From [Clostridium] symbiosum (lineage in GTDB: Bacteria > Bacillota > Clostridia > Lachnospirales > Lachnospiraceae): a stretch of DNA of 33,028 nucleotides. The stretch spans positions 1-33,028 of the forward strand of contig JAETSN010000048.1 of the NCBI GenBank assembly GCA_021769625.1, in the 5' to 3' direction. This document shows, one piece after another, positions 1 through 14,116 of this stretch. The first letter of the stretch is position 1. Each line of letters opens with the position of its first letter. The notes under the pieces were generated by a model that was not told the origin of the DNA, did no database searches, and worked only from the letters and a program-made list of their open reading frames with translations. A program made the translations under genes and the position numbers.

Positions 1-590
1 GTGGCATAGTCTCAAATAGGTGTTCCTCCCATTCCAGATATGGGCTGGTTCTATTTTCATGCCAATTTTTACAAAATCTTTCTTTTAAGTGCAGTTATTG
101 CGAATTAATAACATATTTCTCTTTCAAATTATTCAGCATGCTGTATTTAACCATTCCTTTTAATTGCATCCTTCCAACTACAATTCCAAGAGCAATTCCC
201 TGAACTTTTGCAAATAGAAGAATACTTCCCTCGGAATAATCCTTATTTCTTCTAATACTTCAAAATCTTCAGAAGCAATCAGTGTATCACCAGACCATTT
301 ATCAGCCGCCTTCTCATCATCTTCAGATACCCAATGCGGTCAAGCATCTGGCAGACCTCCACAAAACGGTCATCCGGATCATCTATTGGTGTTTTGAGGC
401 ATACCAAACCTTCCATTTTTCCAACAGATGTAGATATTCAGTCAGCACGCAGAAACACATCACTTCATCCTCCCAAAACTGTTGGATGTATGGTCGTTTA
501 GGTTCGTGGGAAGCTACCACAGCCTGCCCCGACTCAGTAGATATGCCGAAGTCTGCAGGCAGCCTCTGTGCCACTTCGTAGCTACTAAGG
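1..590 (-). pseudogene. Decayed gene of unknown function, runs off the left edge
   Basis: Reading the minus strand from about 590 down, protein-like sequence continues but changes frame repeatedly. One frame begins with LSSYEVAQRLPADFG and stops at 383. A second carries DDPDDRFVEVCQMLDRIG (about 400-335). A third continues with SEDDEKAADKWSGDTL and stops at 178. A fourth carries KVQGIALGIVVGRMQLKG, meets a TAA at 95-97, and goes on in the same frame with SPYLEWEEHLFETMP to the window edge. The mix of frameshifts and a nonsense codon suggests a broken gene rather than non-coding DNA. I do not recognise the family. It lies next to the accessory operon and is probably debris of the same mobile region. 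Joining the frames is my inference. Confidence 0.33.
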
Positions 591-703
591 CCAAACGACT
601 TTCAACCGAAAAATCCGATACTTCTGCCAAAAAAAGAAATCGTCCTCTAAATTTTTGCAAAAATGCAAAATACGCAGAGCGGCGAATGTTCACAATATGC
701 ACC

Positions 704-732
704 TTGATATTGTTCCGCAAATAGAATATAAT
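704..732 (+). promoter_or_regulatory. Sigma-A promoter of the accessory operon
   Basis: TTGATA at 704-709 and TATAAT at 727-732 are separated by 17 bases, a near-consensus vegetative promoter. Transcription would start near 739, about 27 bases before the GTG start of the small HTH gene. No other promoter of this quality is visible before the four large genes, so it may drive the whole locus. Confidence 0.75.
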
Positions 733-765
733 GTTGTCAGATTTAGACGAAAAGGGGTGTTGTTG

Positions 766-972
766 GTGCGTTATTTATCAACTTTTGAGGTGGCGGAGAA
801 ATGGGGGATTTCTCCTCGTCGTGTGGGTGTTCTCTGTAGCCAAAACCGCATCCCCGGTGCACAGCAAGCAGGAAGCCGCTGGATTATCCCAGAGGATGCA
901 GAGAAGCCTACTGATGCTAGAATCAAAAGCGGCAAATATATCAACACAAAAAATAAGGAAAATAAGACATAA
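766..972 (+). CDS. Small helix-turn-helix DNA-binding protein (MerR/excisionase-like HTH_17)
   Basis: A 68-aa protein whose first 50 residues form a MerR/excisionase-type winged helix-turn-helix: YLSTFEVAEKWGISPRRV is the recognition unit and GSRWIIPEDA the wing. The C-terminus is short, basic and polar (KYINTKNKENKT). I chose the GTG at 766 because AAAGGGG at 751-757 lies 8 bases upstream and because the HTH starts immediately after it; the longer reading upstream has no such site and crosses the promoter. From memory, this family often sits in front of accessory and defence genes in Lachnospiraceae, so it probably regulates the operon that follows. It is the first gene after the promoter and ends 3 bases before the next start. 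The DNA-binding role is secure from the motif; its target is inferred. Confidence 0.75.
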   Translation: MRYLSTFEVAEKWGISPRRVGVLCSQNRIPGAQQAGSRWIIPEDAEKPTDARIKSGKYINTKNKENKT

Positions 973-975
973 CGA

Positions 976-1167
976 ATGGAGAATACATTTTTGCCTAGTA
1001 CTATCAGACAGCGGCTTGCCAATCTGATGAAATATCACAAGGTATCTCAGACTAATCTTGCGTTAAAAATTGGATGTGCTAAAAACTTACTCATCCGTTT
1101 CCTGACCGGAAGGACGGACGAGATCGGTGACAAAAACATCAAGGAGGAACGCATATGGCTTCACTAA
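976..1167 (+). pseudogene. Truncated XRE-family helix-turn-helix regulator
   Basis: A 63-aa reading frame. Residues 8-55 resemble the start of an XRE (Cro/CI) HTH: helix 1 IRQRLANLMKYHK, then SQTNLALKIG and the recognition helix with RFLTGRT. Relatives I recall continue through two further helices (a 'GDENIIRIA...FNVSTDFLLG' segment). Here the protein breaks off after GDKNI with only eight more residues. The lost end coincides with the AAGGAGG site and ATG of the next gene, which overlaps this frame by 13 bases. It could be a remnant left when the large operon was joined on, or a short peptide kept for translational coupling. Full DNA binding by the truncated domain is doubtful. Confidence 0.55.
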
Positions 1168-2711
1168 CACACGTCTGTATGTGGTCAAACAACGTCTGGG
1201 AACCGATTACTGCGGAACAAGCCGCCAAGTTGCATCCAGATGGGGGTGGAACCGTATCTGCTCATAGTGGTCTGTTCATGTGTGAACTCTGTGGACAGTA
1301 TGTTATTCTTACTGACGGAGATATTAGGAGACGCTATTTCAAACATAGTGCTTATGAAAAAAGCAAAGATTGCCCTGAACGTACATCCAGAGCTGGCTAT
1401 TCAATCTCTTACAGTTCTCAGGAACACGATTTACCAATCCGTATTACAGGTGTATCCTCATCTTCCTTCAGATTTGAGGTCGGTTTAATTCGTGCTCCAA
1501 TAAGTTCCCTCAATAAAGACTTCCGTATAGAAATCAAACCAAAGGGAGTATCTGATATAAGCTATGTGTTCACTAAGGAGCGACTGAACTACGACAAAAT
1601 TACATATCTTTCTATCGGTGAAAGGCCATTTGAAAAATATATTCTTAGTTTTCAAAATGGAAGCGATAAATTGCATGAATTCTGGCCGCCAGAAATCAAA
1701 GGCATTGATCCCGAAGGCACATTGTTTGAAAAACCTTCCGGCAAAAAACTCTCATCTGATGCCGATGTTGAGATTGAAAAAGAATACTATCTGCTAAAAC
1801 GCGGCATCTATAAAAAGTCATACAGCAGCATGCGGATTGTAGAAATTATGCAAAAGCGGATCGGGCGGGAAACTTGGACCCTCTATGTGGTTTCTGCATC
1901 TGCACTTAACGAAGATGCCGCCCGATTCTATCTTGACTTCCATTGCCGCCTGACAGAGCGCCCTGTTTCATTGCAACCAGTATGGCCACTATTTGTTGAA
2001 GGTAATTACATAGTTAAGCATAATCAAAACAGTATGTATATGCTTGTCGATGGTAATGTAGCTCTAGTTAAAACCTTCCCCCATGTAACAGTTAATCCGC
2101 TAAATGATAATATACCTAAACTATATGAGGTGCCCTGTTCTAGCAGACAACAGTTAATATCTGTCGGTCGTACTCAAGCATTACAATATACATATTTTTG
2201 GAAAGAACCCCTTGACCAGGTGGAGTTGCATCCAAAAGTTTCAGTAACCGATCTTTCAGGTGTTAAGGTTGATCCTGGCGAAACCAATACTCTACCACGC
2301 AACAAAACACTGCGCTTCAAATCAACATTTGATGGCGAACTTATTATCTTCAACAATAATCGTGTTGTAGATAAGCGAAAAATATCTGCTGACAAAACAA
2401 TTGAGTTAGACGGACTAGCCTACAATTTAAGCGTTAAAGTTGTCATCGGTCTTGATGTTATCTGGGAAATCAATTTCAAGAAACAACAGCCTCTCGCTGC
2501 AAAGGACGAAATTGAAATTCTGAAACATATTACTCAGGTATCAGGGGTAACAATCCCGGCCCCGCACTCTTTGTATAATATGTTAGCGGGCATGAATTGC
2601 TATCCGCAGATACGCCAATGGGTACGAAAATGTATTAAGAACGGCATCATTTATGAGCAATCTTACCGCAAATTGCAGATGGTCTATCGTAGCATGAATA
2701 CGAATAGATAA
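1155..2711 (+). CDS. Defence-operon protein with CoiA-like zinc motif, unknown function
   Basis: A 518-aa soluble protein with no signal peptide or membrane segment. Near the N-terminus are C43-x2-C46, H64 and C73, the last two in a KHSAYEKSKDCPER segment. This CxxC...H...C arrangement resembles the zinc-binding N-terminal domain of CoiA-like competence proteins, which precedes a nuclease domain there. I see no nuclease motif in the rest. Residues 90-450 look beta-rich, and the last 70 residues are helical and basic (IRQWVRKCIKNG). The ATG at 1155 follows AAGGAGG at 1140-1146. It is the first large gene of the four-gene operon, and the Shine-Dalgarno of the next gene overlaps its stop codon. 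It may be a nucleic-acid-sensing or adaptor subunit for the helicase; this is inference from context and the zinc motif only. Confidence 0.72.
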   Translation: MASLTHVCMWSNNVWEPITAEQAAKLHPDGGGTVSAHSGLFMCELCGQYVILTDGDIRRRYFKHSAYEKSKDCPERTSRAGYSISYSSQEHDLPIRITGVSSSSFRFEVGLIRAPISSLNKDFRIEIKPKGVSDISYVFTKERLNYDKITYLSIGERPFEKYILSFQNGSDKLHEFWPPEIKGIDPEGTLFEKPSGKKLSSDADVEIEKEYYLLKRGIYKKSYSSMRIVEIMQKRIGRETWTLYVVSASALNEDAARFYLDFHCRLTERPVSLQPVWPLFVEGNYIVKHNQNSMYMLVDGNVALVKTFPHVTVNPLNDNIPKLYEVPCSSRQQLISVGRTQALQYTYFWKEPLDQVELHPKVSVTDLSGVKVDPGETNTLPRNKTLRFKSTFDGELIIFNNNRVVDKRKISADKTIELDGLAYNLSVKVVIGLDVIWEINFKKQQPLAAKDEIEILKHITQVSGVTIPAPHSLYNMLAGMNCYPQIRQWVRKCIKNGIIYEQSYRKLQMVYRSMNTNR

Positions 2712-2721
2712 GGAGATACAT

Positions 2722-5487
2722 ATGAATTACGTCGGCGTTCTTACTCGGGAAGAAAAATCGATCCTATGCGAAATCATCACCGGTAGAGATTTCAAAGAGC
2801 TCTTTATGAGAAACGAAAAAGAATTCTCGAAAATTCGAAAAGGATTCAGAGCTAAATCATTGACAGAACAGCAAGCTCTATCAATTGCCATAGCCAATGT
2901 TGACAAGCCCTTTATCGCAATGTGGGTTAATACAAGGGTAGATATCTGGCTCAAGGAAATTCAGAAAAACATAGAGAAGTTAGAAGGAGAAGGTTCGGCC
3001 CATGACATGGCTCTGGCAGCGGCCATGCTTGACTCCTTCTTTATCAATAATGTCGATTTATACCTAAAACTCGCAGAAAAGTCTTTGGATGTGGATGCCC
3101 GTTCTGACCTTCATAAAAGAATGGAAAGTATCAAATCTGAGCGTGCGAGGAATGCTGAAATGGCTGGCCGCATTAAAAATATGGAAGAGGAAAAACGTCA
3201 TCTGCTCGATCAAATCGAAACCGTTCAGCAGAGTATTATTGCTATAAAGGCAAAATATGAACAAAAAATACAAGAAATTGAACAGGAAAAAAGCCAATTG
3301 GAGTCCTTGTTGACTGAGGCACAAGAGAGAATTACTGAATTGCAGACCGCTCCTACCGCTGTCACAAGTGATGATGCAGATTATCTCGCACATTTTGATG
3401 ATACGGATACTTCTGTTCTGCCTTCTGTCGACAGTGATGAAATTGTGTCTTTATGTGGGGTTATCTCAGATTACAATGGACAAAAATGGCTTATTCGTTA
3501 TGCGGATTTGGGTAATAATGGACACTATCATATTTTTCAAAAAAGCGAAGATGCTCTACCTCACTTTACAAATAGAGACAAGCTTTTCTGTAAGGATGGT
3601 TCCTCCAAGGACGGTTTCTATGGCATTTGGACGTGGTCGGCAACTCCAAACGAGAAGGATCCTTCCAAAGATTATATATTATCGCAGTACAACATGGATC
3701 TTGATGCCATTGAAATCATTACCATTTCAGAAGCATCAAACCTTGATGATCTGATCAACCTGCTGAAAAACGGAATCGAATGTCATCTTCACAGTCGTAG
3801 AGTCATATTCGCCATTTGCACATCCAAGGAACAGTATACTGGTGTTCTGTGCAAAACCAAAGAACTCAAGATGGTTAATGGAATGACTGCTTTTGCTGAA
3901 GAAAGCATTGAAGTACCTGTATACGAATTTACCGAGGATGTCATTTTACGTTTGGAAAATGGTTTTTCTTTCTATGGAAATGCATTTGTTGGCATTCCGA
4001 GCAAACTTTATCATTTGAAGAGTCCGCTTGATATTGTAAGGGATGTCGTTCTTTCTTCAATTTCTTGGACAACATACAAGACAAGGAGTGTGACTCGCTC
4101 TGAATATAGAACTTTTAAGGATTTTCTTGACGGAATTCCAGTTGATGACATAACATGCAAAATACAAACTGTTTGCCGCTGTTCCAATCCTGCCGCGAAA
4201 AATTTGTTGGATGAATTCCTAAAGGTGGTATGGAAATATATTGATGGTGCCAGCTTGGAAGATGAGATAATTCTCTCAGTTCTTTCTGCAAATATTGAAC
4301 TTCAGGAAAGAACAAAAACACTTATTCGCACAGATTGGGAAGCGGAGAACAAGAGCTTATTGGCTGAAACTCAGGAGAAACTTGATTCACTTGACGCTGA
4401 GTTGAACACTACTGCCGCTCGTTTAACCGAAGCACAAGAAGCGCTTCATAAAACCCAATTAGAGGAAAAACGCCTTGCCGGAATTATAACTGAAAAAGAA
4501 AAACTGGCTGAGAATGTCGAAAAAGCAGTCGCCGAAAAAATCCAAAGAGCCCAGAAAAATGTAGCAGATTTTATCGCAAATATGGCATTTGTTGGTGGAC
4601 AACCGATTCAAGTTGCAGACACAAAGACTTCTGCCACAGTTGAGGTTTCGTCCAAACCTGCTGTTACCCCATATCACACTTTTTCAGCATTTGAGGACCT
4701 GGATGATCTCGAACCTCATCACTCCTGGGCAGATGTGATTAATACAGTTGCATTTGAATTCGGAGAGGCTGGTGTAGCAGAAAAATACAGAAACGGCTTA
4801 GCCGCGTTCCTCTGCGCTGCCTATATTAAAAAGCAGCCCATTCTCCTTGTTGGTCCTAATGCGATCGACATTGTCCAAGCATTTAGCGCAGCTGTAACGT
4901 GTCATAAGTATGGAATGCTCTGCTGTGAGGGCAGCTATAGCGATCAGGTAATCGCAGAAATCGGTGCCGATGGCGAAAACATCGTGATTGTCAACAATCT
5001 TTTTGCAAGTGGCTGGATGAACAGGCTTCCAGAGATTTTTTCTCAAAATGATATTTTCTATGTTGTTACCCATCCGTATGCAGAAGATATTCAGGTTGAG
5101 CCCAAGAGCCTGTATGGATTCATGCTACCGCTATTTTCGGAGTTTTTTGTGGATAAAAAAGCTACAGGCAAATATTATGGAGGCTATTTTGCTGATGACT
5201 TCAAAACCTACTCAGCACCAAAGGACGCACGTACAGATTTAAGAGTCCTTTCAAAATTTCCGCTGAGCCCTTTAGTCAAAAACCAAATCAATTGCCTTGT
5301 TACTACAATGCATGGCATATACTCTACAACAACAGCGGATGAGGAGTTCTTGTTTGCTATTCTCCCTATTGCTTATGCGTCACTGGCATTTAACGCGCTC
5401 ACAGAGGCGATTGCTGATTCACAGAAAGGTATCGCCATTTCTGCAAGCCTTAAGCGTGACCTACAATATGTTTTAGGAGAAATCTGA
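2722..5487 (+). CDS. Coiled-coil protein with degenerate AAA-like C-terminal domain
   Basis: A 921-aa protein. Residues 1-125 are helical. A long coiled coil spans about 130-215 (heptad-like runs such as KNMEEEKRHLLDQIE), a mixed domain covers about 220-540, and a second coiled coil about 545-630. The C-terminal 220 residues look like an AAA-type nucleotide-binding fold: hydrophobic strand then LLVGPNA at 708-714 where a P-loop would be, and later ENIVIVNN where Walker B would be. The P-loop lacks the Gly-Lys-Ser/Thr and the Walker B position has asparagines, so ATP hydrolysis is unlikely. The Shine-Dalgarno AAGGAGATA begins in the stop codon of the preceding gene, and the stop overlaps the next ATG by one base (TGATG). 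A structural, oligomerising subunit is my best guess; I do not recognise the family. Confidence 0.75.
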   Translation: MNYVGVLTREEKSILCEIITGRDFKELFMRNEKEFSKIRKGFRAKSLTEQQALSIAIANVDKPFIAMWVNTRVDIWLKEIQKNIEKLEGEGSAHDMALAAAMLDSFFINNVDLYLKLAEKSLDVDARSDLHKRMESIKSERARNAEMAGRIKNMEEEKRHLLDQIETVQQSIIAIKAKYEQKIQEIEQEKSQLESLLTEAQERITELQTAPTAVTSDDADYLAHFDDTDTSVLPSVDSDEIVSLCGVISDYNGQKWLIRYADLGNNGHYHIFQKSEDALPHFTNRDKLFCKDGSSKDGFYGIWTWSATPNEKDPSKDYILSQYNMDLDAIEIITISEASNLDDLINLLKNGIECHLHSRRVIFAICTSKEQYTGVLCKTKELKMVNGMTAFAEESIEVPVYEFTEDVILRLENGFSFYGNAFVGIPSKLYHLKSPLDIVRDVVLSSISWTTYKTRSVTRSEYRTFKDFLDGIPVDDITCKIQTVCRCSNPAAKNLLDEFLKVVWKYIDGASLEDEIILSVLSANIELQERTKTLIRTDWEAENKSLLAETQEKLDSLDAELNTTAARLTEAQEALHKTQLEEKRLAGIITEKEKLAENVEKAVAEKIQRAQKNVADFIANMAFVGGQPIQVADTKTSATVEVSSKPAVTPYHTFSAFEDLDDLEPHHSWADVINTVAFEFGEAGVAEKYRNGLAAFLCAAYIKKQPILLVGPNAIDIVQAFSAAVTCHKYGMLCCEGSYSDQVIAEIGADGENIVIVNNLFASGWMNRLPEIFSQNDIFYVVTHPYAEDIQVEPKSLYGFMLPLFSEFFVDKKATGKYYGGYFADDFKTYSAPKDARTDLRVLSKFPLSPLVKNQINCLVTTMHGIYSTTTADEEFLFAILPIAYASLAFNALTEAIADSQKGIAISASLKRDLQYVLGEI

Positions 5488-6497
5488 TGAACAAATATAA
5501 CAGACTGCTTTCAACAGCAGCGCACAAGTATTACATCCATAAAGGAACACTAGAATCAGAGAACGATTGGAAAGCTCGTCTGGTTTATAGTATTTGTGGA
5601 ATGATGGCTTATGCTTCGCTCTGGGACAATCTGGAAGAAGAACCCATTTCCATTGTGCATTTAAAAAGAAAAGTTTGCAGAATGCTTGCAAATTACAAAT
5701 CAATGTACCCAGAGCTTTCTGGCCACTTACCATATGTTTCTAAGAAATTAGAGGATGAGATTGCAAACCAATTCTTAAGCACAGGAGTAGTTTATCACTG
5801 TCTCAACCGAATAGCTCCATCAATGAAGCATGAAGAACTGTTCAGTGATATCTTATTTCAAAGAGGTATTGCTCTGGATAGTATCTCCTGTGTCTCCGGT
5901 ATTGGTTTTTATTCAAAACAGGAAGGAGCAACAAATCCGGATAGAATAAAAACAATGTTTGGTCTCGAACATGAGACTTTACAGGCATTGTGGTGCGCAA
6001 CGCTATCTGCTGCTTCCTGGAAATCCAATCTGTCGTTTGAGCAAAATACAGAGTACCTCCGCTTAAAACCGCCTTTCTATCAAGGAGACTGGGTAAACAA
6101 ACCCGATACGACCGGTACAGTTTCGATCCTTCGAACCAGAATGAAAGGTTCACACTTATACTATCTTTACCGCTATTCTGATGCAATGATAGAAGTCAGT
6201 CCACTACCACAGTGGCAGGTTGAGTCCTACAATTACAGATTGCTTGCATGCGCCTGTCTCTCAACCTATGGAACATTGCCGCCAATAGAGTATTTCGAGG
6301 ATGGAGCATTAGTCCATGTACATATGAATTATTTGCTCCCACCACATGAACTTGAGTTTTTGAAACTCTACAGTTGGCCTGAGACATGCACATCACTCCC
6401 GTGCGATTTTAGGCGAAAAACCTCAATAGAAGTCTTTACAGCCATTAAGAATCTTCTATCTGATGAGGGGTATGAATTTAAAGGAGGGACAATCTGA
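5487..6497 (+). CDS. Unknown defence-operon subunit (336 aa)
   Basis: A 336-aa protein without signal peptide, membrane helix or recognisable catalytic motif. It is mostly helical in the first 130 residues and mixed afterwards, with aromatic-rich stretches (FYQGDWVNKPD, SHLYYLYRYSD). Its ATG shares one base with the stop of the upstream gene, and its own stop shares one base with the ATG of the helicase gene, so all three are probably translated in a coupled way and made in similar amounts. That placement argues for a dedicated partner of the helicase or the coiled-coil protein. Size and position loosely recall the accessory subunits of Druantia operons, but I cannot assign homology from the sequence alone. 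Confidence 0.72.
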   Translation: MNKYNRLLSTAAHKYYIHKGTLESENDWKARLVYSICGMMAYASLWDNLEEEPISIVHLKRKVCRMLANYKSMYPELSGHLPYVSKKLEDEIANQFLSTGVVYHCLNRIAPSMKHEELFSDILFQRGIALDSISCVSGIGFYSKQEGATNPDRIKTMFGLEHETLQALWCATLSAASWKSNLSFEQNTEYLRLKPPFYQGDWVNKPDTTGTVSILRTRMKGSHLYYLYRYSDAMIEVSPLPQWQVESYNYRLLACACLSTYGTLPPIEYFEDGALVHVHMNYLLPPHELEFLKLYSWPETCTSLPCDFRRKTSIEVFTAIKNLLSDEGYEFKGGTI

Positions 6498-9400
6498 TGC
6501 CAAACGGAGCAAATTCTATTCATAAGCAGTTGCGAACGGAGCTTGAAGACTATATTAAATCACAGTATTTCGGAAAGTCTCCTCTTCTGCTATCTGCCTT
6601 AAGTGATCATATTGATGATGAGGGACTGCTTTACCAGAAACCCTTTATTGAGTCATCCCCAGCATATGTTACTGTACCAAACGGTATTGAGACAGCATCC
6701 ATCCAACCTTGGATGAAAGATTATTTCTTACAGTTGGCGGAGGCTGAAATCGGAGTTTTTCCATCTCCATTTGCTCACCAGATATCTGCACTTGAAGCAG
6801 CAACCAGAGGGGAAGATTTGTTTGTTTCAACTGGTACTGGTTCAGGTAAAACAGAGTGTTTTATGTGGCCACTTCTTGCGAAAATGGCTACTGAAGCAAG
6901 AAACTCCAAAGAATCATGGGCAAAACGAGGTGTTCGCACAATTGTTATGTATCCCATGAATGCCCTGGTTTCAGATCAGATTAGCCGCCTTAGAAGGATG
7001 ATCGGAGATCCTGATAAGAAGTTTATTAAGATATTCAGAAATACCTGTGGTGACGAAGTTCGCCGTCCCCAGTTTGGTATGTATACTGGACGAACTCCGT
7101 ACCCTGGAGCGCAGCCTTCTACAGAACAGGACAGAAAACTTGTAAAAACCTTGGCAAGAATATCTTTCCCGCAAAATGATTCCGAAAAAGAATACTTCAA
7201 TCACCTTCTCGAAGATGGAAAGATCCCTGCAAAGGCAGATATGCATCAGTTCCTGCAAGGACTTCATGAGAGTAGGCATATTCCAAACGATGAGGATGCA
7301 GAGCTGATAACCCGATTTGAAATGCAACAATTCTGCCCAGACATTCTCATCACAAACTACTCTATGCTGGAATACATGCTACTACGTCCCAGAGAACAGA
7401 AAATTTGGGATGATACCCGCAAGTGGCTTGCTTCAAACAACGAGAACAACTTGCTGTTTGTTATTGATGAAGCACATATGTACCGTGGTTCATCAGGCGG
7501 TGAAGTTGCGTTACTGATTCGCAGACTTTTCCATAAGCTTGGTATCAGCCGCAACCGTGTGCAATTTATACTCACAACCGCAAGTATGCCAAACAAGAAT
7601 CAGCAAGACGTTGATTCAATTATGAAGTTTGCAAATGAACTTACCGCTTCCGACAAAGCGACCCGGTTCTGCTATCTCACCGGCGAAAGAGAAGTCATCG
7701 ATGGTCAGTTGAAATATGACATACCCACCGAGCTTCTCTTAAGCTCAGATCCTAGCCAATTTGAGGACAAGGATGAATTGAAGCTTTCTGCGCTCTTGTC
7801 GTTCTGGCACCAGTTGGAAGGTTTTGACCATAACATCAACTCCTTAAAAGCAATCTGCAACTGGATGTATGACAATCTTGTTTATTATCGTCCGTTCCAT
7901 GAACTCCTTAAGTATTGTCGCGGAAATGCAGTATCTCTGGGAGAATTGTCTTCTGGCATCTTCCCGGATCTTGATCAGAAAAATGCGTTAAAAGCGGTCA
8001 GCGTCCTTCTGGCAATTGCACCGCATGCAAAAAACGCCAAAGGTTCTGTCCTTTTCCCTGCACGTATGCACATGCTTTTCAAGGGCATTTCCGGAGTTTA
8101 TGCCTGCGCCAATGCTAATTGCAACTGTTCTCATTCGGAAGGAGGTCTCACTTTAGGTGAAATCTATTTGTCCGATGGTAATTTAATTTGCCCCCATTGT
8201 GGCAGTGTTGTATATGAACTTTACAACGACAGACGTTGTGGTGCGCTATTCTTCAAGGGCTATGTCCTTAAAGATGACCCAGAGCTTCATGGAAATGTAT
8301 ACCTGTGGCGCTACCCCGGTCAGTTAATGGACCGCAGGATGAAAGAAGTACATCTGTTTATCCCAACTGACGATTTTGAGTTGCCTGCAAAACAGGGAAA
8401 AAACGCCATCAAGCCATGTTATCTTGATGTCAAGAGCGGGTTTGTTAATTTTACAGATGACTCTTCCGCTGGGAAGTCATGGATTAGAAAGCTGTATTAC
8501 TGCAACTATTCTGCAAAAGGCAGACCGCAGATCATTACCTTCCCGACTTGCCCACATTGCAGGCATCAACTTTCTACATCGCAGCTTACCTCATTTAGCA
8601 CTCGAGGTAATCAGTCTTTCTTCAACTTGATCAAGTCGCAATTCCAACTGCAACCTACTGTACCAGGAAAAGACGATAATCCTGATCGGTTTCCTAACGA
8701 GGGACGCAAAGTTTTGCTTTTCTCTGATAGCCGTCAACGTGCTGCAAAACTGGCCAGAGATATGTCTGATGCTTCGGATATTTCCGCTGCAAGGCAGTTG
8801 TTTGCAATAGCGATCAAAACAATGGAAGGGCAAGCAGTTGAGCAATCCATGAATACGCTGTACGATTATTTCTGCCTTGCAGCCGCTCAGCATCATGTGC
8901 AGATGTTCCATGCCGATGAACGCACAAAATTCGCTGAAGATTGTGCTTCTGCGCTGAATAATTACAATCGATGCGTAAAACGTGGAAGAGACTACGCTCC
9001 GCGATTTACTATTGCGAACGCGCCAGTACAGATGCAAGAATACCTTCTTCGATTGTTTGCTGGAGGTTATAACACTTTGTATGACTCCGCTACGAGCTGG
9101 ATTGAACCTACCGATCAGGCACTTTTTGATGCTGTCGATGCTCTTGGGGAAAACCATGTAATAGTCACTGATGAAGAGTTTATTGATTTCTTCAATGCTT
9201 GGATTCTATCAATCTGTGATATGTCTACCGCCCTTGGCCATACCATCAATGATACAGTTCGATTGAAGGTTCGCCCAAATCACGGTGGTTATGGGCTTGA
9301 TAAAGATTGGGGGTTTTCAAAGGTCATGCGAAAGATCATGGGGTGGAGCGACGGAGATGAAACTGAGATGACTTGGAAACGAGTATTGAGAGAAGCGTTC

Positions 9401-11743
9401 CTTGACTCAGCCCAACCTGATAATGGTAAACTATACATTGATCTTTCCAGAGTAAAAGCACGTTTTGATGCTACGCATGTATGGCACAAGTGTGAGCAGT
9501 GCTCTGAGTTGACACCCTTCACCCTAAAAGGCAAATGCCCAAGCTGTGGTTCCACTCACATCCATAAGATGAAATTTGATGAATACGAAGCACTTAGTTT
9601 CTGGAGAAAGCCGGTTGCTGACGCGCTCCAAGACGAGCCAATCCACGTAATTGACACAGAAGAGCATACCGCTCAGCTCTCACACAAAGACCAGCGTGAT
9701 GACCTTTGGAGCAAAACCGAACAATATGAGCTGCGCTTTCAGGACTTGATCCAAGATGGTGAAACGCCTGTCGATATTCTCAGCAGCACGACCACCATGG
9801 AAGTTGGTATCGATATTGGTTCCCTGGTTGCAGTTGGCCTGCGAAATATTCCTCCAATGCGTGAAAACTATCAACAGCGAGCAGGTCGTGCAGGCCGACG
9901 TGGATCCAGTTTATCTACAATCGTTACCTTCTGTGAAGATGGTCCCCACGATACATTATACTTCAATGACCCGATTCCCATGTTTCGTGGCGATCCTCGC
10001 AAGCCTTGGATAGATATACGCAGCGAGAAACTCCTCCAACGCCATCTGGCTATGGTTATCCTACAGGAATACCTTACAGAAAATCATATGAGCCTCGATA
10101 CAGTTCCCGCAGCTGTTTTCCTCCAAGACTTCCTTGACAGTTTCAAGAACTATCTTGCTTCCTACAATGTTGATAAGGATAAGCTTCTTTTGCCTATCGG
10201 AGCAGCATTTCATTATTCGGTGTTTGAGGATGATCTCAAAGAGGCCTTTGATACACTTAAAGAAAAATGCCAGGCTCATCCCGAGCTTTTTGGCGTAGAT
10301 GAAGGCGCTAAGGAAGGCGATGCAAAGGTTCTTCTGGATGCTCTCTATGAAGAAGGGATCATCCCAACATATTCATTTCCGAAAAATGTCGTAAGTACCT
10401 ACATCCCGGATATGCACGGGAAGATTCTCTATGAGGTTGACCGTGGACTTGATGTAGCTATTGGAGAATATGCTCCTGGCAGAGCAATTGTTGTTGATAA
10501 ACAAACCTATCAAATTGGCGGATTCTACTATCCTGGAAGTGAACGTCGCCATGGTCAAGCACTAACTCCGGCACGTGCCTACACAGAAGATCCAAATTAT
10601 GTGAAACAGGTTATCTCCTGTGCTGAGTGTGGCTGGTTTGGCCTGATGGAAGAGGATACAAAATGTTGTCCATTCTGTGGGAACAGTGATCTGAAAATCA
10701 CTCGAGAAATGATGCGACCCTGGGGCTTTGCACCAAGAAATGCTGAAGCAATACCAGATGTTCAGCTATCAGAAGAGTATACGGCCGTACAGCAGCCTCT
10801 GTATTCAACCCTACCAGATGCAGAAGAAATGAAACTTGTTCCAGACTGCAAAAACATACGAATCGCTTCTCGAACAAATCAGCGGATCATCATGCTAAAC
10901 AAAGGTTCAGATAACAAAGGTTTCATGGTTTGCAAGGACTGTGGTGCTTCCATGCCAGGCGATGACATTTCTGTTCTAAATGACATTAACAGGCCCTACA
11001 AGTCGAAATATGCTCGAAGCAGATGCCGTCATGGCAATTCCTTTAATGTGAATCTTGGCTATGACTTCATAACTGATATGTTGGTTCTTGAATTCACAAT
11101 TAATGACAAGATTATTGATGTGCGCCGGAATGATAATCCATGGCTTAGCCGCGCAGCTCAATCCTTAGCTGAAGCACTGCGACTGGTAGCTAGCAAAAAA
11201 CTTGATGTTGAATTCACTGAACTTGTCACCGGCTATCGTCTCAGGACTGGATCCAAAGCCTCCTATGTCGATATCTATCTTTATGATAGCCTATCGAGCG
11301 GCGCTGGTTATGCTGTAAGTGTAGCCGATACAATTGCTGAACTACTATCCGACATGAAGAAGCTGTTAAGTTCCTGTGATTGTGGATCTGCTTGTTCCAA
11401 ATGCCTGAAGCATTACAGAAACCAGTATGCACATGGCATGCTTGACCGCTCCGCTGCATTGCAACTCCTTAGATGGGGTATTGATGGAATAAAGGCATCA
11501 CCTATCAAGCCAGAAGCACAGATTAACATGATTATGCCTTTGGCGAATATCCTTAAACAATCTGGTTGCGAAATCACTGCTGATAGTGAAATCATCGCAA
11601 CCAGGCGAAGAAACACAAAGAAGATTGTTATTTACCCAGCAATGTGGATTGAACCACATGCTATTAATACTATTTTTGTGAGCGATGCTTATATCAAATA
11701 CTCCAAACCATATGCTGTTCAAAAGATTCTCGACAATATTTGA
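6497..11743 (+). CDS. Giant SF2 helicase with DUF1998-type zinc cluster (DruE/MrfA/DrmB-like)
   Basis: A 1748-aa superfamily-2 helicase. Motif order: Q-motif-like FAHQ near 92-95, Walker A TGTGSGKT at 112-119, DEAH at 324-327 (VIDEAHMYRG), TTTMEVGIDIG before motif VI QQRAGRAGRRG at 1126-1136. Zinc-ribbon cysteine pairs are interspersed at about 537/565-568, 685-688, 999-1002/1014-1017, 1375-1378/1389-1393 and 1479-1482. Near the C-terminus is C1627-x-C1629-x3-C1633-x2-C1636, the DUF1998 signature shared by MrfA (YprA), DISARM DrmB and Druantia DruE. The length is near that of DruE and far above the roughly 750 aa of MrfA, with about 800 residues between the two RecA lobes. It is the last gene of the operon, coupled to the previous one by TGATG. 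Family knowledge points to a DNA translocase in phage defence; the exact system is unassigned. Confidence 0.88.
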   Translation: MPNGANSIHKQLRTELEDYIKSQYFGKSPLLLSALSDHIDDEGLLYQKPFIESSPAYVTVPNGIETASIQPWMKDYFLQLAEAEIGVFPSPFAHQISALEAATRGEDLFVSTGTGSGKTECFMWPLLAKMATEARNSKESWAKRGVRTIVMYPMNALVSDQISRLRRMIGDPDKKFIKIFRNTCGDEVRRPQFGMYTGRTPYPGAQPSTEQDRKLVKTLARISFPQNDSEKEYFNHLLEDGKIPAKADMHQFLQGLHESRHIPNDEDAELITRFEMQQFCPDILITNYSMLEYMLLRPREQKIWDDTRKWLASNNENNLLFVIDEAHMYRGSSGGEVALLIRRLFHKLGISRNRVQFILTTASMPNKNQQDVDSIMKFANELTASDKATRFCYLTGEREVIDGQLKYDIPTELLLSSDPSQFEDKDELKLSALLSFWHQLEGFDHNINSLKAICNWMYDNLVYYRPFHELLKYCRGNAVSLGELSSGIFPDLDQKNALKAVSVLLAIAPHAKNAKGSVLFPARMHMLFKGISGVYACANANCNCSHSEGGLTLGEIYLSDGNLICPHCGSVVYELYNDRRCGALFFKGYVLKDDPELHGNVYLWRYPGQLMDRRMKEVHLFIPTDDFELPAKQGKNAIKPCYLDVKSGFVNFTDDSSAGKSWIRKLYYCNYSAKGRPQIITFPTCPHCRHQLSTSQLTSFSTRGNQSFFNLIKSQFQLQPTVPGKDDNPDRFPNEGRKVLLFSDSRQRAAKLARDMSDASDISAARQLFAIAIKTMEGQAVEQSMNTLYDYFCLAAAQHHVQMFHADERTKFAEDCASALNNYNRCVKRGRDYAPRFTIANAPVQMQEYLLRLFAGGYNTLYDSATSWIEPTDQALFDAVDALGENHVIVTDEEFIDFFNAWILSICDMSTALGHTINDTVRLKVRPNHGGYGLDKDWGFSKVMRKIMGWSDGDETEMTWKRVLREAFLDSAQPDNGKLYIDLSRVKARFDATHVWHKCEQCSELTPFTLKGKCPSCGSTHIHKMKFDEYEALSFWRKPVADALQDEPIHVIDTEEHTAQLSHKDQRDDLWSKTEQYELRFQDLIQDGETPVDILSSTTTMEVGIDIGSLVAVGLRNIPPMRENYQQRAGRAGRRGSSLSTIVTFCEDGPHDTLYFNDPIPMFRGDPRKPWIDIRSEKLLQRHLAMVILQEYLTENHMSLDTVPAAVFLQDFLDSFKNYLASYNVDKDKLLLPIGAAFHYSVFEDDLKEAFDTLKEKCQAHPELFGVDEGAKEGDAKVLLDALYEEGIIPTYSFPKNVVSTYIPDMHGKILYEVDRGLDVAIGEYAPGRAIVVDKQTYQIGGFYYPGSERRHGQALTPARAYTEDPNYVKQVISCAECGWFGLMEEDTKCCPFCGNSDLKITREMMRPWGFAPRNAEAIPDVQLSEEYTAVQQPLYSTLPDAEEMKLVPDCKNIRIASRTNQRIIMLNKGSDNKGFMVCKDCGASMPGDDISVLNDINRPYKSKYARSRCRHGNSFNVNLGYDFITDMLVLEFTINDKIIDVRRNDNPWLSRAAQSLAEALRLVASKKLDVEFTELVTGYRLRTGSKASYVDIYLYDSLSSGAGYAVSVADTIAELLSDMKKLLSSCDCGSACSKCLKHYRNQYAHGMLDRSAALQLLRWGIDGIKASPIKPEAQINMIMPLANILKQSGCEITADSEIIATRRRNTKKIVIYPAMWIEPHAINTIFVSDAYIKYSKPYAVQKILDNI

Positions 11744-12082: not shown

Positions 12083-12447
12083 ATTCGTCACCTCTAGTCA
12101 TCCCGAAATGCTTCCATTCTTCCACAATCGCCTTTTCCTTCGCCGGTGGGCATTGCAGTTGCTTGATATCTTCAGACTTTGGTTTATTGTAGTTCTCACG
12201 CTCGATGATACCGCGTTTCTGTCTCACCTGTGCAATATACAGGCTACTGACCTTTAAGCCGGTATGTTCCAGCACATAATCCTTAATCTCTTGATAGGTA
12301 GTATAGCGTTTTTCAAATAGCCGGACTATAAAAACACTATATTTTCTGGCATTTTTCAGCCATAATAAAGTCCAGTTAATTAACGAACGCTATACTAGCT
12401 TTCTTCTCTGCATCGTTCAAATCCAACTCAATTTCAATATGCTGAGT
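12060..12447 (-). pseudogene. RlmD C-terminal extension remnant split by a MITE
   Basis: Directly after the rlmD stop codon the same frame continues with TQHIEIELDLNDAEKKA. It is interrupted at 12397 and resumes at 12300 with TYQEIKDYVLEHTG, then SSLYIAQVRQKRGIIER and a conserved QCPPAKEKAI segment, ending at a TAA at 12060. Removing the 95-bp insertion and one TA restores 96 uninterrupted codons. I recall this module as a C-terminal extension fused to RlmD/TrmA-type methyltransferases in gut Firmicutes, usually at element junctions. Here a TAG cuts it off from rlmD and the insertion breaks it further. The last 71 codons alone stay open (12060-12275), but no Shine-Dalgarno is apparent for them. 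Confidence 0.6.
12301..12395. mobile_element. 95-bp MITE-like element with TA target duplication
   Basis: GTATAGCGTT (12301-12310) and AACGCTATAC (12386-12395) are perfect 10-bp terminal inverted repeats. Weaker complementarity reaches about 30 bp inward (GGACT and AATA blocks match), so the element can fold into one long hairpin. It is flanked by TA at 12299-12300 and 12396-12397. Precise removal of the element plus one TA restores the reading frame of the RlmD extension, strong evidence for insertion. TA duplication and short inverted repeats without a gene fit a non-autonomous relative of IS630/Tc1-mariner elements; that family label is inference. Confidence 0.72.
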
Positions 12448-14019
12448 CTATTTCAATTTGGACAATAAACACACCGTCTCCACATGCACACTCTGGCAGA
12501 ACTGATCGCAGACTCTCCCCTTTATCATTTCATACCCTCCCGCGCAGAGTATCTTCAGATCCCTCGCCAGCGTCGCGGAATCGCAGCTGACATAGACCAC
12601 CCTTTTGGGCTGCATTTTCAGTATCGTATCCAGACATGCTGCGTCACATCCTTTTCTGGGCGGATCCACTACGATCACATCGGGATGGCTCATATCCCAT
12701 GTCTTCCCATCTTCCCCCGCTTCGCTGTTTTCTCTTTCTCCGCTTTCCTGCTTATAAAACTCCGGCAGTATCTCCTCCGCTTTCCCCGCAAAAAACTTAA
12801 CGTTCCCGATTCCGTTCTTCCTGGCGTTCTCCCGGGCGTCCTCTATGGCTTCCGGTATCACTTCCACCCCGTAAACCTGCTTTGCCGCCTGCGCAAGAAA
12901 CAGGGAGATCGTACCGATGCCGCAGTACAGATCCCAGACCGTCTCCCTCCCTGCCAGTTCCGCATAGGAGAGGGCTGTCGAATACAGCTTTTCCGCCTGC
13001 GCCGTGTTGACCTGATAGAAAGACCGCGGAGAGATCTCATACATGACATTCCTGTCAGTTTTTACAAAATCCTCCCCATCGATCCGCAACAGATGCATTT
13101 TATCCCTGATCTTGTCTTTTCCCCAGACCGTATAGGTCTTCTCTCCCATGATGACATTCGTATTGTCATGATTGAGATTCACGGATATACTTGTCATTCC
13201 GTGTACCATCGCCAGCTTGTCCACCAGCTTATTCTGCTCCGGTATCCATTTTCTCCCATAAGTCCTGCCGAAATCCGCTTCCCCCGGATTCCCCTCTTTT
13301 TCCTCTCCGGCATTTCTCTTCTCTGTCCGCCTGCCGGCAGAAGACATTTCTTCTGCATTGATCACAATACAGACCATCAGCTCCCCTGTGGAAAAACCCT
13401 TCCGTATCAGTACATGGCGCACCAGGCCCTGCCCTGTCTTCTCGTCGTAAGCCGCCACATGATACCGCTCCATATGCTGCAATAAGATCTCCAGAATCAT
13501 CTTGTTCTCCGGCGCCCCGATCAGGCAGTCCGTGTTGGCGATGATCGAATGCGTTCTTCCCGCATAAAAACCGGTAACGATCTTTCCTTCTTTAGAGTAG
13601 CCGAAAGGGTACTGCGCCTTATTCCGGTAATGCCATGGATCTTTCATACCGATGGCAGGCTCCATGATCCGCCTGACCTCTTCCGATCCGAACCCACCGA
13701 TCCGTATCAGGTTATTTTCCACTTTCGCCTGTTTGAAGGCAAGCTGCTTTTCGTAGGAAAGCGCCTGAATCTGGCAGCCTCCGCACTGCCTGTGTAAAGC
13801 ACAGGGCGGCTTTACTCTGTCCGGGGACGGCTCAAGTATCTCTTCCAGTCTCGCATAAGCATAATTTTTCTTTACCTTTGTCAGCCGCACTTTTGCGACA
13901 TCCCCGGGCAAAGCGTCCTTGACAAAAAGGGAAAAGCCCTCTATCTTGCCGATGCCTTCCCCTTCCGTTCCGATATCTTCTATCTTCACTGTATAGATCT
14001 GATTTTTCTGAAATGTCAC
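12448..14019 (-). CDS. rlmD: 23S rRNA (uracil-5-)-methyltransferase RlmD/RlmCD
   Basis: SAM-dependent enzyme that makes 5-methyluridine in 23S rRNA. An N-terminal TRAM domain (about 1-60) is followed by the 4Fe-4S ligands C73, C79, C82 (CALHRQCGGC) and C165. The C-terminal Rossmann domain has the SAM motif DLYCGIGTISLFLAQ, the DPPRKG motif, and catalytic cysteine C479 in SCDSATLARD. Two low-complexity charged inserts (EKRNAGEEKEGN and SGERENSEAGEDGK) are unusual. I chose GTG at 14019 because AGGGAGG lies 5 bases upstream; an earlier in-frame GTG at 14040 has no good site. It follows yhaM by about 100 bases on the same strand. In Gram-positives one enzyme (RlmCD) can modify both U747 and U1939, so the exact target is open. 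Its 3' end is the accessory-region boundary. Confidence 0.93.
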   Translation of the reverse strand: MTFQKNQIYTVKIEDIGTEGEGIGKIEGFSLFVKDALPGDVAKVRLTKVKKNYAYARLEEILEPSPDRVKPPCALHRQCGGCQIQALSYEKQLAFKQAKVENNLIRIGGFGSEEVRRIMEPAIGMKDPWHYRNKAQYPFGYSKEGKIVTGFYAGRTHSIIANTDCLIGAPENKMILEILLQHMERYHVAAYDEKTGQGLVRHVLIRKGFSTGELMVCIVINAEEMSSAGRRTEKRNAGEEKEGNPGEADFGRTYGRKWIPEQNKLVDKLAMVHGMTSISVNLNHDNTNVIMGEKTYTVWGKDKIRDKMHLLRIDGEDFVKTDRNVMYEISPRSFYQVNTAQAEKLYSTALSYAELAGRETVWDLYCGIGTISLFLAQAAKQVYGVEVIPEAIEDARENARKNGIGNVKFFAGKAEEILPEFYKQESGERENSEAGEDGKTWDMSHPDVIVVDPPRKGCDAACLDTILKMQPKRVVYVSCDSATLARDLKILCAGGYEMIKGRVCDQFCQSVHVETVCLLSKLK

Positions 14020-14116
14020 CTTCTCCTCCCTCTGCTGCACCTCTTTTTCATCGTATATCCCTTTTCTGCATACGTCTGCTTATTGCGACATATATCTGCG
14101 CCGCAAAATTCCCCTA

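Follow-up and report, generated by a model that had tools for sequence, protein, structure and literature searches.

A DruA-less sister lineage of Druantia type I as the probable identity of a putative four-gene anti-phage operon in [Clostridium] symbiosum

Does a four-gene operon around a DruE-like helicase in [Clostridium] symbiosum represent an undescribed anti-phage system or a form of one already named? The operon lies in a window of 33,028 nucleotides, the whole stretch of DNA analysed here (GenBank assembly GCA_021769625.1, contig JAETSN010000048.1), whose base 1 is the first base of the contig and thus the point where the data begin. We found that the system is neither unknown nor strictly Druantia type I, the latter because druA, one of the genes that define that type, was searched for and is missing. 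The best explanation, to which sequence comparison lends a probability of roughly three in four, is a four-component anti-phage system, DruBCDE, that constitutes a DruA-less sister lineage of Druantia type I and was carried in as cargo of a decayed element.

The operon comprises four intact open reading frames (ORFs) of 518, 921, 336 and 1748 amino acids (aa), all on the plus strand between positions 1155 and 11743 (Table 1). A gap of 10 bases separates druB from druC, with AAGGAG preceding the druC start, and the druC/druD and druD/druE junctions each consist of a one-base overlap (TGATG). PADLOC model DruE1 matched the product of the last gene at 1731 bits from aa 3 to 1745, covering positions 5-1771 of the 1776 in the model; other models scored lower (DruE2 622, DruE4 584, DruE3 no more than 511, DpdJ 79 and DrmA 38 bits). 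Pfam recognised DEAD (1.1e-20) and MZB (7.8e-10, aa 1557-1637). Besides the motifs in Table 1, DruE contains TTAS (aa 360), TTTMEVGIDIG (aa 1098), QQRAGRAGR (aa 1126) and seven CxxC pairs in addition to the DUF1998 cluster. An earlier note on this DNA had described a four-gene operon, a DruE-like helicase with superfamily 2 (SF2) motifs and a DUF1998 cysteine cluster, and a window with no methyltransferase of the DISARM kind and no DruA-, DruM- or DruH-like gene; each of these points holds.

A 13-row DruE profile compared with solved structures gave two helicase chains of 2108 and 1970 residues as its best matches (3e-153 and 9.6e-133); their size suggests that they are Druantia DruE. The next match was a YprA/MrfA helicase (1.4e-28). 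That solved YprA structure, and the place of DruE in the YprA/MrfA family with its DUF1998/MZB domain, would suit a DNA-repair module of the MrfAB/YprAB kind with no part in defence. We consider such a module very improbable, given that the two much larger chains match far better, that all four genes are homologous to those of a named defence system, and that the distribution is patchy (9/295 genomes of the order), with a mobile-element context and restriction neighbours. Bell et al. (PMC12458937) predict inactivated C-terminal Vsr nucleases in type I and II DruE. A viral scan with the close DruE alignment returned no relatives, and a scan with the DruE of locus L032 matched L032 itself and nothing else. 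Loci L051-L064 and L073-L082, from other Bacillota genomes, gave partial matches to the DruE1 profile (339-487 bits) and are probably other Druantia-like or YprA-family helicases.

The identity of the three partners becomes firm because profiles of their relatives were used instead of single sequences. Hidden Markov models (HMMs) built from DruA-less members of the clade only (25, 24 and 24 rows for DruB, DruC and DruD) were compared with reference proteins, including E. coli DruA to DruE, and with 861 reversed ORFs; the type I references were the E. coli MB1 locus (L098) and the P. putida pKF715A locus (L027). The models matched E. coli DruB, DruC and DruD at 5.6e-8, 6.5e-7 and 2.5e-13 and their P. 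putida counterparts at 5.9e-10, 2.9e-8 and 2e-8, and none of the three matched DruA. PADLOC model DruD1 covered the window DruD at full length and matched 24/24 members of the DruD alignment. An iterated search across loci likewise tied druB, druC and druD to the P. putida plasmid locus, whose annotation lists DruA, three hypothetical proteins and a helicase, and BLASTP of the window DruB against P. putida DruB gave 8e-7. The C-terminal part of DruC, aligned by hhalign from DruA-less rows only, reached 68.4% against E. coli DruC (E 4.7e-5), and 97.9% when the rows included the DruC proteins of P. putida and genome G626. We therefore firmly assign the window proteins, on these profile comparisons, as predicted divergent homologues of type I DruB, DruC and DruD in canonical order, with remote matches in the case of DruB and DruC, and reject the reading of undescribed partners.

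Several observations weigh against this assignment. The single-sequence PADLOC matches were weak (DruB1 0.025; DruC1 7e-5, aa 541-730; DruD1 2.4e-5), and with the DruD clade HMM reversed sequences of DruD itself reached 8.7e-4. The clade HMMs missed the G626 DruC and a 356-aa ORF at the DruD position of G626, as well as the haloarchaeal B and C/D proteins. BLASTP found no convincing match between the window DruC and the P. putida protein, and none between the window DruD and its P. putida partner, which was read from an over-long start. Across the alignments, DruC1 (PDLC00006) matched 8/26 members and the three DruB1 models 6, 5 and 4 of 28. That B, C and D resemble known models so little is what speaks for an undescribed system related to Druantia through its helicase only, the reading of the earlier note, which recognised no known component in the other three proteins. 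We find this hard to credit, since the B, C and D profiles each match their E. coli counterpart, with the gene order preserved, and DruD1 recovers every DruD homologue. A probable anti-phage operon thus survives from that proposal, whereas "undescribed" does not: all four genes come close to matching one named system, Druantia type I, and what is still new is that DruA is missing throughout the lineage and that B, C and D have diverged.

At its N-terminus the window DruB matched DUF7830 at E 1.1e-4, under the family cut-off, and CoiA_N appeared at E up to 0.1 in 22/28 DruB homologues; our impression from sequence is that the remainder is beta-rich. Window DruC exceeds its E. coli counterpart (627 aa) by 294 aa, within a clade range of about 526 to 929 aa. 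Its C-terminus may hold a dead AAA+/McrB-like domain, which we offer as a lead only. According to Bell et al. (PMC12458937), the McrB-like homologues of CnuB that Druantia I and II encode are inactivated. Against such a domain, hhalign of the DruC C-terminus to E. coli McrB gave 18.3, compared with up to 25.7 for shuffled McrB and 22.1 for HsdS, and no McrB-type family was among the 25 of 155 Pfam families listed for this part. Solved structures yielded mainly coiled-coil-type matches for DruC, none for DruD and a best value of 0.25 for DruB. A viral scan with the close DruC alignment found no relatives, and hhalign of DruB, DruC and DruD against the partner proteins of L034-L036 gave at most 2% probability throughout.

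DruA is missing from the lineage as a whole. PF14236 (DruA) had no match in the window's own genome, which is 96.6% complete, and none in any of the 24 genomes with the lineage (the genome itself, 14 relatives and nine further genomes), several of which are incomplete. The P. putida and Halalkaliarchaeum plasmids served as positive controls and matched in the same search, while the set of 14 relatives contained no matching positive control. DruE from 23 of these 24 genomes is in the 42-row tree described below; that of G1023 is split between contigs and stands outside it. A tenth further genome, G626, has DruA ~1.4 kb past druE on the opposite strand, and has a DruE that falls with those of canonical type I. 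Counted by helicase, 18/19 genomes with a full-length or split DruE1 that were followed up lacked DruA, the 19 including the window's own and coming from draws centred on its taxon. Such a DruE1 occurred in 9/295 genomes of the order, 9/391 of the class and 3/398 of the phylum, the own genome being counted each time and partial matches of up to 487 bits in the class and phylum lists being left outside the counts. A conserved fifth gene in place of DruA was considered and rejected: all-against-all clustering of 363 flank ORFs of at least 80 aa from 26 loci produced no family that spans the clade, the largest group being a rumA-type neighbour in 5 loci. As far as literature listings show, no paper names a DruA-less Druantia variant, and we claim no priority; for types I and II, Bell et al. 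speak of "unappreciated diversity" (PMC12458937).

Phylogenetics of DruE placed the 27 DruA-less rows of a 42-row tree on one branch (Shimodaira-Hasegawa-like approximate likelihood ratio test, SH-aLRT, 100). In a more careful tree of 32 rows (11 dropped from the 42 and E. coli added), 23 DruA-less Bacillota-type rows formed one clade with support of 100/100, near E. coli type I. How this clade branches relative to the haloarchaeal row (93/93, on a long branch) and to E. coli, P. putida and G626 (90/90) was less sure, and the clade together with the haloarchaeal row and these three (27 rows) had 100/100. The simplest reading is that DruA was lost once at the base of the clade. In the outgroup, DruA lies two genes upstream of the DruD position in L035 and L036, L034 and L039 have longer and weaker DruA-profile matches some kilobases off, and L038 ends at a contig edge. 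PADLOC applied to the partners of L034-L036 identified two proteins first labelled 'M' as DruA and the L035 protein labelled 'G' as DruD. L035:4252-9943 and L036:4786-9977 each run from DruA through one protein of 952-972 aa that has no PADLOC match to the DruD position and DruE. On a haloarchaeal plasmid (L028:3365-14406), DruE is accompanied by a gene in the place of DruB and by a 608-aa protein of which one stretch weakly matches the DruD model; a DUF4338 gene adjoins the set on the opposite strand.

The four genes also occur together in other genomes, B-C-D-E being co-directional in 24/27 clade loci. The exceptions are L003 and L011, at contig ends, and L029, a frame-broken, unverified record; some co-directional loci (L013, L021, L022) have cut or split ORFs. 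Ratios of nonsynonymous to synonymous substitution rates (dN/dS) against L014 and L015 were 0.18-0.19 for B, 0.175-0.179 for C, 0.22-0.253 for D and 0.076-0.078 for E; with L017, saturation of dS makes the ratio meaningless. All four genes are under purifying selection, with B, C and D evolving faster than E, and it is this selection together with the recurring gene order that lifts the arrangement beyond chance. The same data bear on whether the operon is a canonical type I system that lost druA and no longer works. Sister and outgroup loci do have DruA or DUF4338-type genes and the flanking element is decayed, yet the absence of DruA is common to a deep clade (23 rows, 100/100) and the four ORFs are intact with dN/dS of 0.076-0.253, so a non-working remnant is quite improbable. 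L020:650-15992 contains an entire DruBCDE-type operon, after which come another druB (12449) and a druC match before the contig end cuts the sequence off; L011 (contig C342), the other DruE of the same genome, may continue this second operon.

Because a form without druA occurs in two dozen Firmicutes genomes, the data suggest that druA may lie outside the essential Druantia core. A search that requires druA would miss the lineage. DruA-less loci are a natural experiment on which genes may form the core; they offer a smaller version for reconstitution and make DNA methylation a candidate for the self signal.

Methyltransferase genes stand next to the operon in part of the clade. In a three-member subclade, a D12 adenine methyltransferase gene begins 14 (L026), 4 (L087) and 8 bp (L094) after druE (L026:1760-2608, L087:16090-16929, L094:10204-11166). 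A C5-methyltransferase upstream of druB is common to L022, L032 and L033 (Pfam on L022 only), and in L022 and L033 a gene of 270-272 aa sits between it and druB, at distances of 33 and 51 bp from the latter. In L093 an Eco57I-type gene follows druE by 49 bp, in L090 an HsdR gene precedes druB by 37 bp, and restriction genes are nearby in L017 (McrC), L018 (MmeI) and L088 (GmrSD). The Pfam survey of neighbours covered ten hand-picked proteins, of which the L023 protein had no match and two were the rumA-type neighbour. Four methyltransferase families gave 242 matches in 24 genomes (84.8 Mb), and a match lay within 5 kb of the operon in 6/25 cases against 0.71 expected (Poisson 1e-4), a count in which positions in six named genomes are unmapped to the operon and contig ends shorten the flanks. 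This enrichment supports a defence role more than a mechanism, since defence islands cluster anyway.

These neighbours nevertheless raise a methylation-gated variant, in which DruBCDE would attack DNA without a host methyl mark made by a linked or host methyltransferase. The tight D12 linkage downstream of druE, the C5 genes upstream of druB and the Eco57I-type gene of L093 all fit it. None of the window ORFs scanned is a linked DNA methyltransferase; in the genome as a whole, the D12 and N6_Mtase families gave no match, C5 a single fragment, and N6_N4 a single match at a contig end. Clustering of flank ORFs revealed no methyltransferase family across the clade, and the linked genes could be ordinary restriction-modification neighbours, so that we rate gating by methylation as possible though unlikely. 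More speculative, and doubtful, is a wider version in which DruBCDE is the true Druantia I core, lost DruA once in Bacillota, acts without a nuclease of its own under a methylation gate, and repeatedly recruited methyltransferases as the self mark (D12 and Eco57I types after druE, C5 before druB).

How might a DruA-less DruBCDE system act? DruE would be an SF2 DNA translocase or helicase of the YprA/MrfA kind, with a RecA core, zinc modules and a DUF1998 canopy, and may load on DNA with an exposed single strand such as phage replication forks or ends. DruB (zinc-binding, CoiA-like), DruC (a scaffold of coiled coils that may include a dead AAA+ domain) and DruD could form a recognition or regulatory assembly that licenses DruE on foreign DNA, with DNA methylation as a candidate cue for self and non-self. 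Since no active nuclease was recognised in the operon, interference would proceed without one of its own, by unwinding, by a block to replication or circularisation, or by making strands accessible to host nucleases. Type III DruE is described as a helicase-nuclease that engages intermediates containing single-stranded DNA (PMC13192584), and mycobacterial DruHE as blocking phage DNA circularisation (PMC13316683). These findings, with the inactivated nuclease and McrB-like parts noted above, lead us to propose a DruBCD-loaded helicase that blocks replication. Three points count against the DruBCDE reading here: the mechanism is borrowed by analogy from type III, where DruE includes a PLD nuclease; the linkage to restriction-modification genes may reflect defence islands in general; and no phage assay was found for the DruA-less lineage.

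Beyond the operon, the surroundings point to a mobile element (Table 1). A search of 29 loci located the upstream helix-turn-helix (HTH) gene, once taken for the operon's regulator, in two besides the window, L014 (91% identical) and L015 (79%), and the remaining 26 gave no match. Two ORFs, one XRE-type and one sigma-factor-like (our own labels), separate it from druB in L014 and L015; in L013 the contig is cut inside druB and the upstream side is outside the data. Present in 3/29 loci and non-adjacent to druB in two of them, it was rejected as a regulator and belongs instead to the surrounding mobile element. The XRE-type remnant that follows it is 60% identical to aa 1-55 of a 96-aa ORF in L015. 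Downstream, the rumA-type gene also adjoins the operon in L013 and L014 (Pfam) and L015 (tblastn); the ORFs downstream of druE in these loci had been considered as recombinases, which proved wrong. A detached remnant beside the window's rumA-type gene is 62% (L013), 84% (L014) and 79% (L015) identical to the last ~70 aa of their methyltransferase ORFs, compared with 37, 34 and 30% for the remaining parts. Streptococcal integrative and conjugative elements with serine integrases are reported to use rumA as an insertion site and to replace its 3' part (PMC4701971), and the operon is therefore probably the cargo of a decayed element inserted at rumA. Among the ten window ORFs scanned by Pfam no integrase was found, and a plasmid search with window positions 1-1160 returned no match. 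Direct repeats at the rumA junction amounted to a single pair, 14 bases long (93%), treated as chance.

Table 1. Positions and strands of the operon genes, their motifs and the flanking features in the window.
Feature	Positions	Strand	Remarks
druB-like gene	1155..2711	+	518 aa; N-terminal CoiA/DUF7830-like, zinc-finger-like stretch
Putative zinc ligands C43, C46, H64, C73 of DruB	1281..1373	+	(near-)invariant in 28-sequence alignment
druC-like gene	2722..5487	+	921 aa; coiled-coil stretches
DruC C-terminal part	4684..5484	+	G-x-N-A-x-x-I-A-type majority pattern at possible P-loop position (alignment)
druD-like gene	5487..6497	+	336 aa; overlaps druC by 1 base
druE	6497..11743	+	1748-aa SF2 YprA-family helicase with DUF1998/MZB domain; overlaps druD by 1 base
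Walker A / motif I GTGSGKT, aa 113-119	6833..6853	+	invariant in 13-row DruE alignment
Motif II DEAH, aa 324-327	7466..7477	+	sequence motif of DruE
DUF1998 cysteine cluster CDCGSACSKC, aa 1627-1636	11375..11404	+	DruE motif
HTH gene	766..972	+	context, outside operon; mobile-element module
Truncated XRE-type HTH remnant (our own label)	976..1140	+	55 aa; ends just before druB
Detached remnant of element-side C-terminal methyltransferase extension	12099..12302	-	similarity to L013-L015
rumA-type rRNA (uracil-5)-methyltransferase	12448..14040	-	Pfam tRNA_U5-meth_tr 3.7e-25; likely insertion site

Among known systems, DISARM (DrmAB), Dpd (DpdJ) and MrfA/YprA share with the window a YprA-family SF2 helicase with or beside a DUF1998 module. 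Scores for DISARM and Dpd are far lower (DpdJ 79, DrmA 38 bits) and the three partner genes match no DISARM or Dpd partner, DrmB and DrmC being absent from the matches listed for them; the one methyltransferase among ten further window ORFs (Pfam) is of the rumA type. Types II and IV and the Type IV CoCoNuT also have a DruE-type helicase (DruE2 622, DruE4 584 bits), and Bell et al. place Druantia I and II together, both with inactivated McrB-like proteins (PMC12458937). These types differ in their partners, described as DruM, DruF and DruG or DruF and DruL (PMC8565338, PMC13316683), and no DruF, DruM, DruG or DruL was among the matches listed for the three window proteins. Type III (DruHE) has a DruE-type helicase and probably a DNA-targeting role in common with the window system; it differs in consisting of two genes and in the PLD nuclease domains described for its DruE (PMC12458937), and the window showed no DruH among the listed partner matches and a DruE3 score of no more than 511 bits. 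The DruA-X-DruD-DruE loci on viral contigs (L035, L036) resemble the operon in DruE and, for L035, in a DruD-model match, but they possess DruA, have a single 952-972-aa protein at the place of DruB and DruC, and fall in the outgroup of the tree. Druantia type I itself is described as five genes (DruABCDE). Unlike it, the window lacks DruA and has highly diverged B, C and D, and compared with E. coli its DruE is 88 aa shorter (1748 vs 1836) and its DruC 294 aa longer. Like it, the window system has a full-length DruE1-family helicase that is near type I in the DruE tree, along with DruB, DruC and DruD homologues arranged in matching order.

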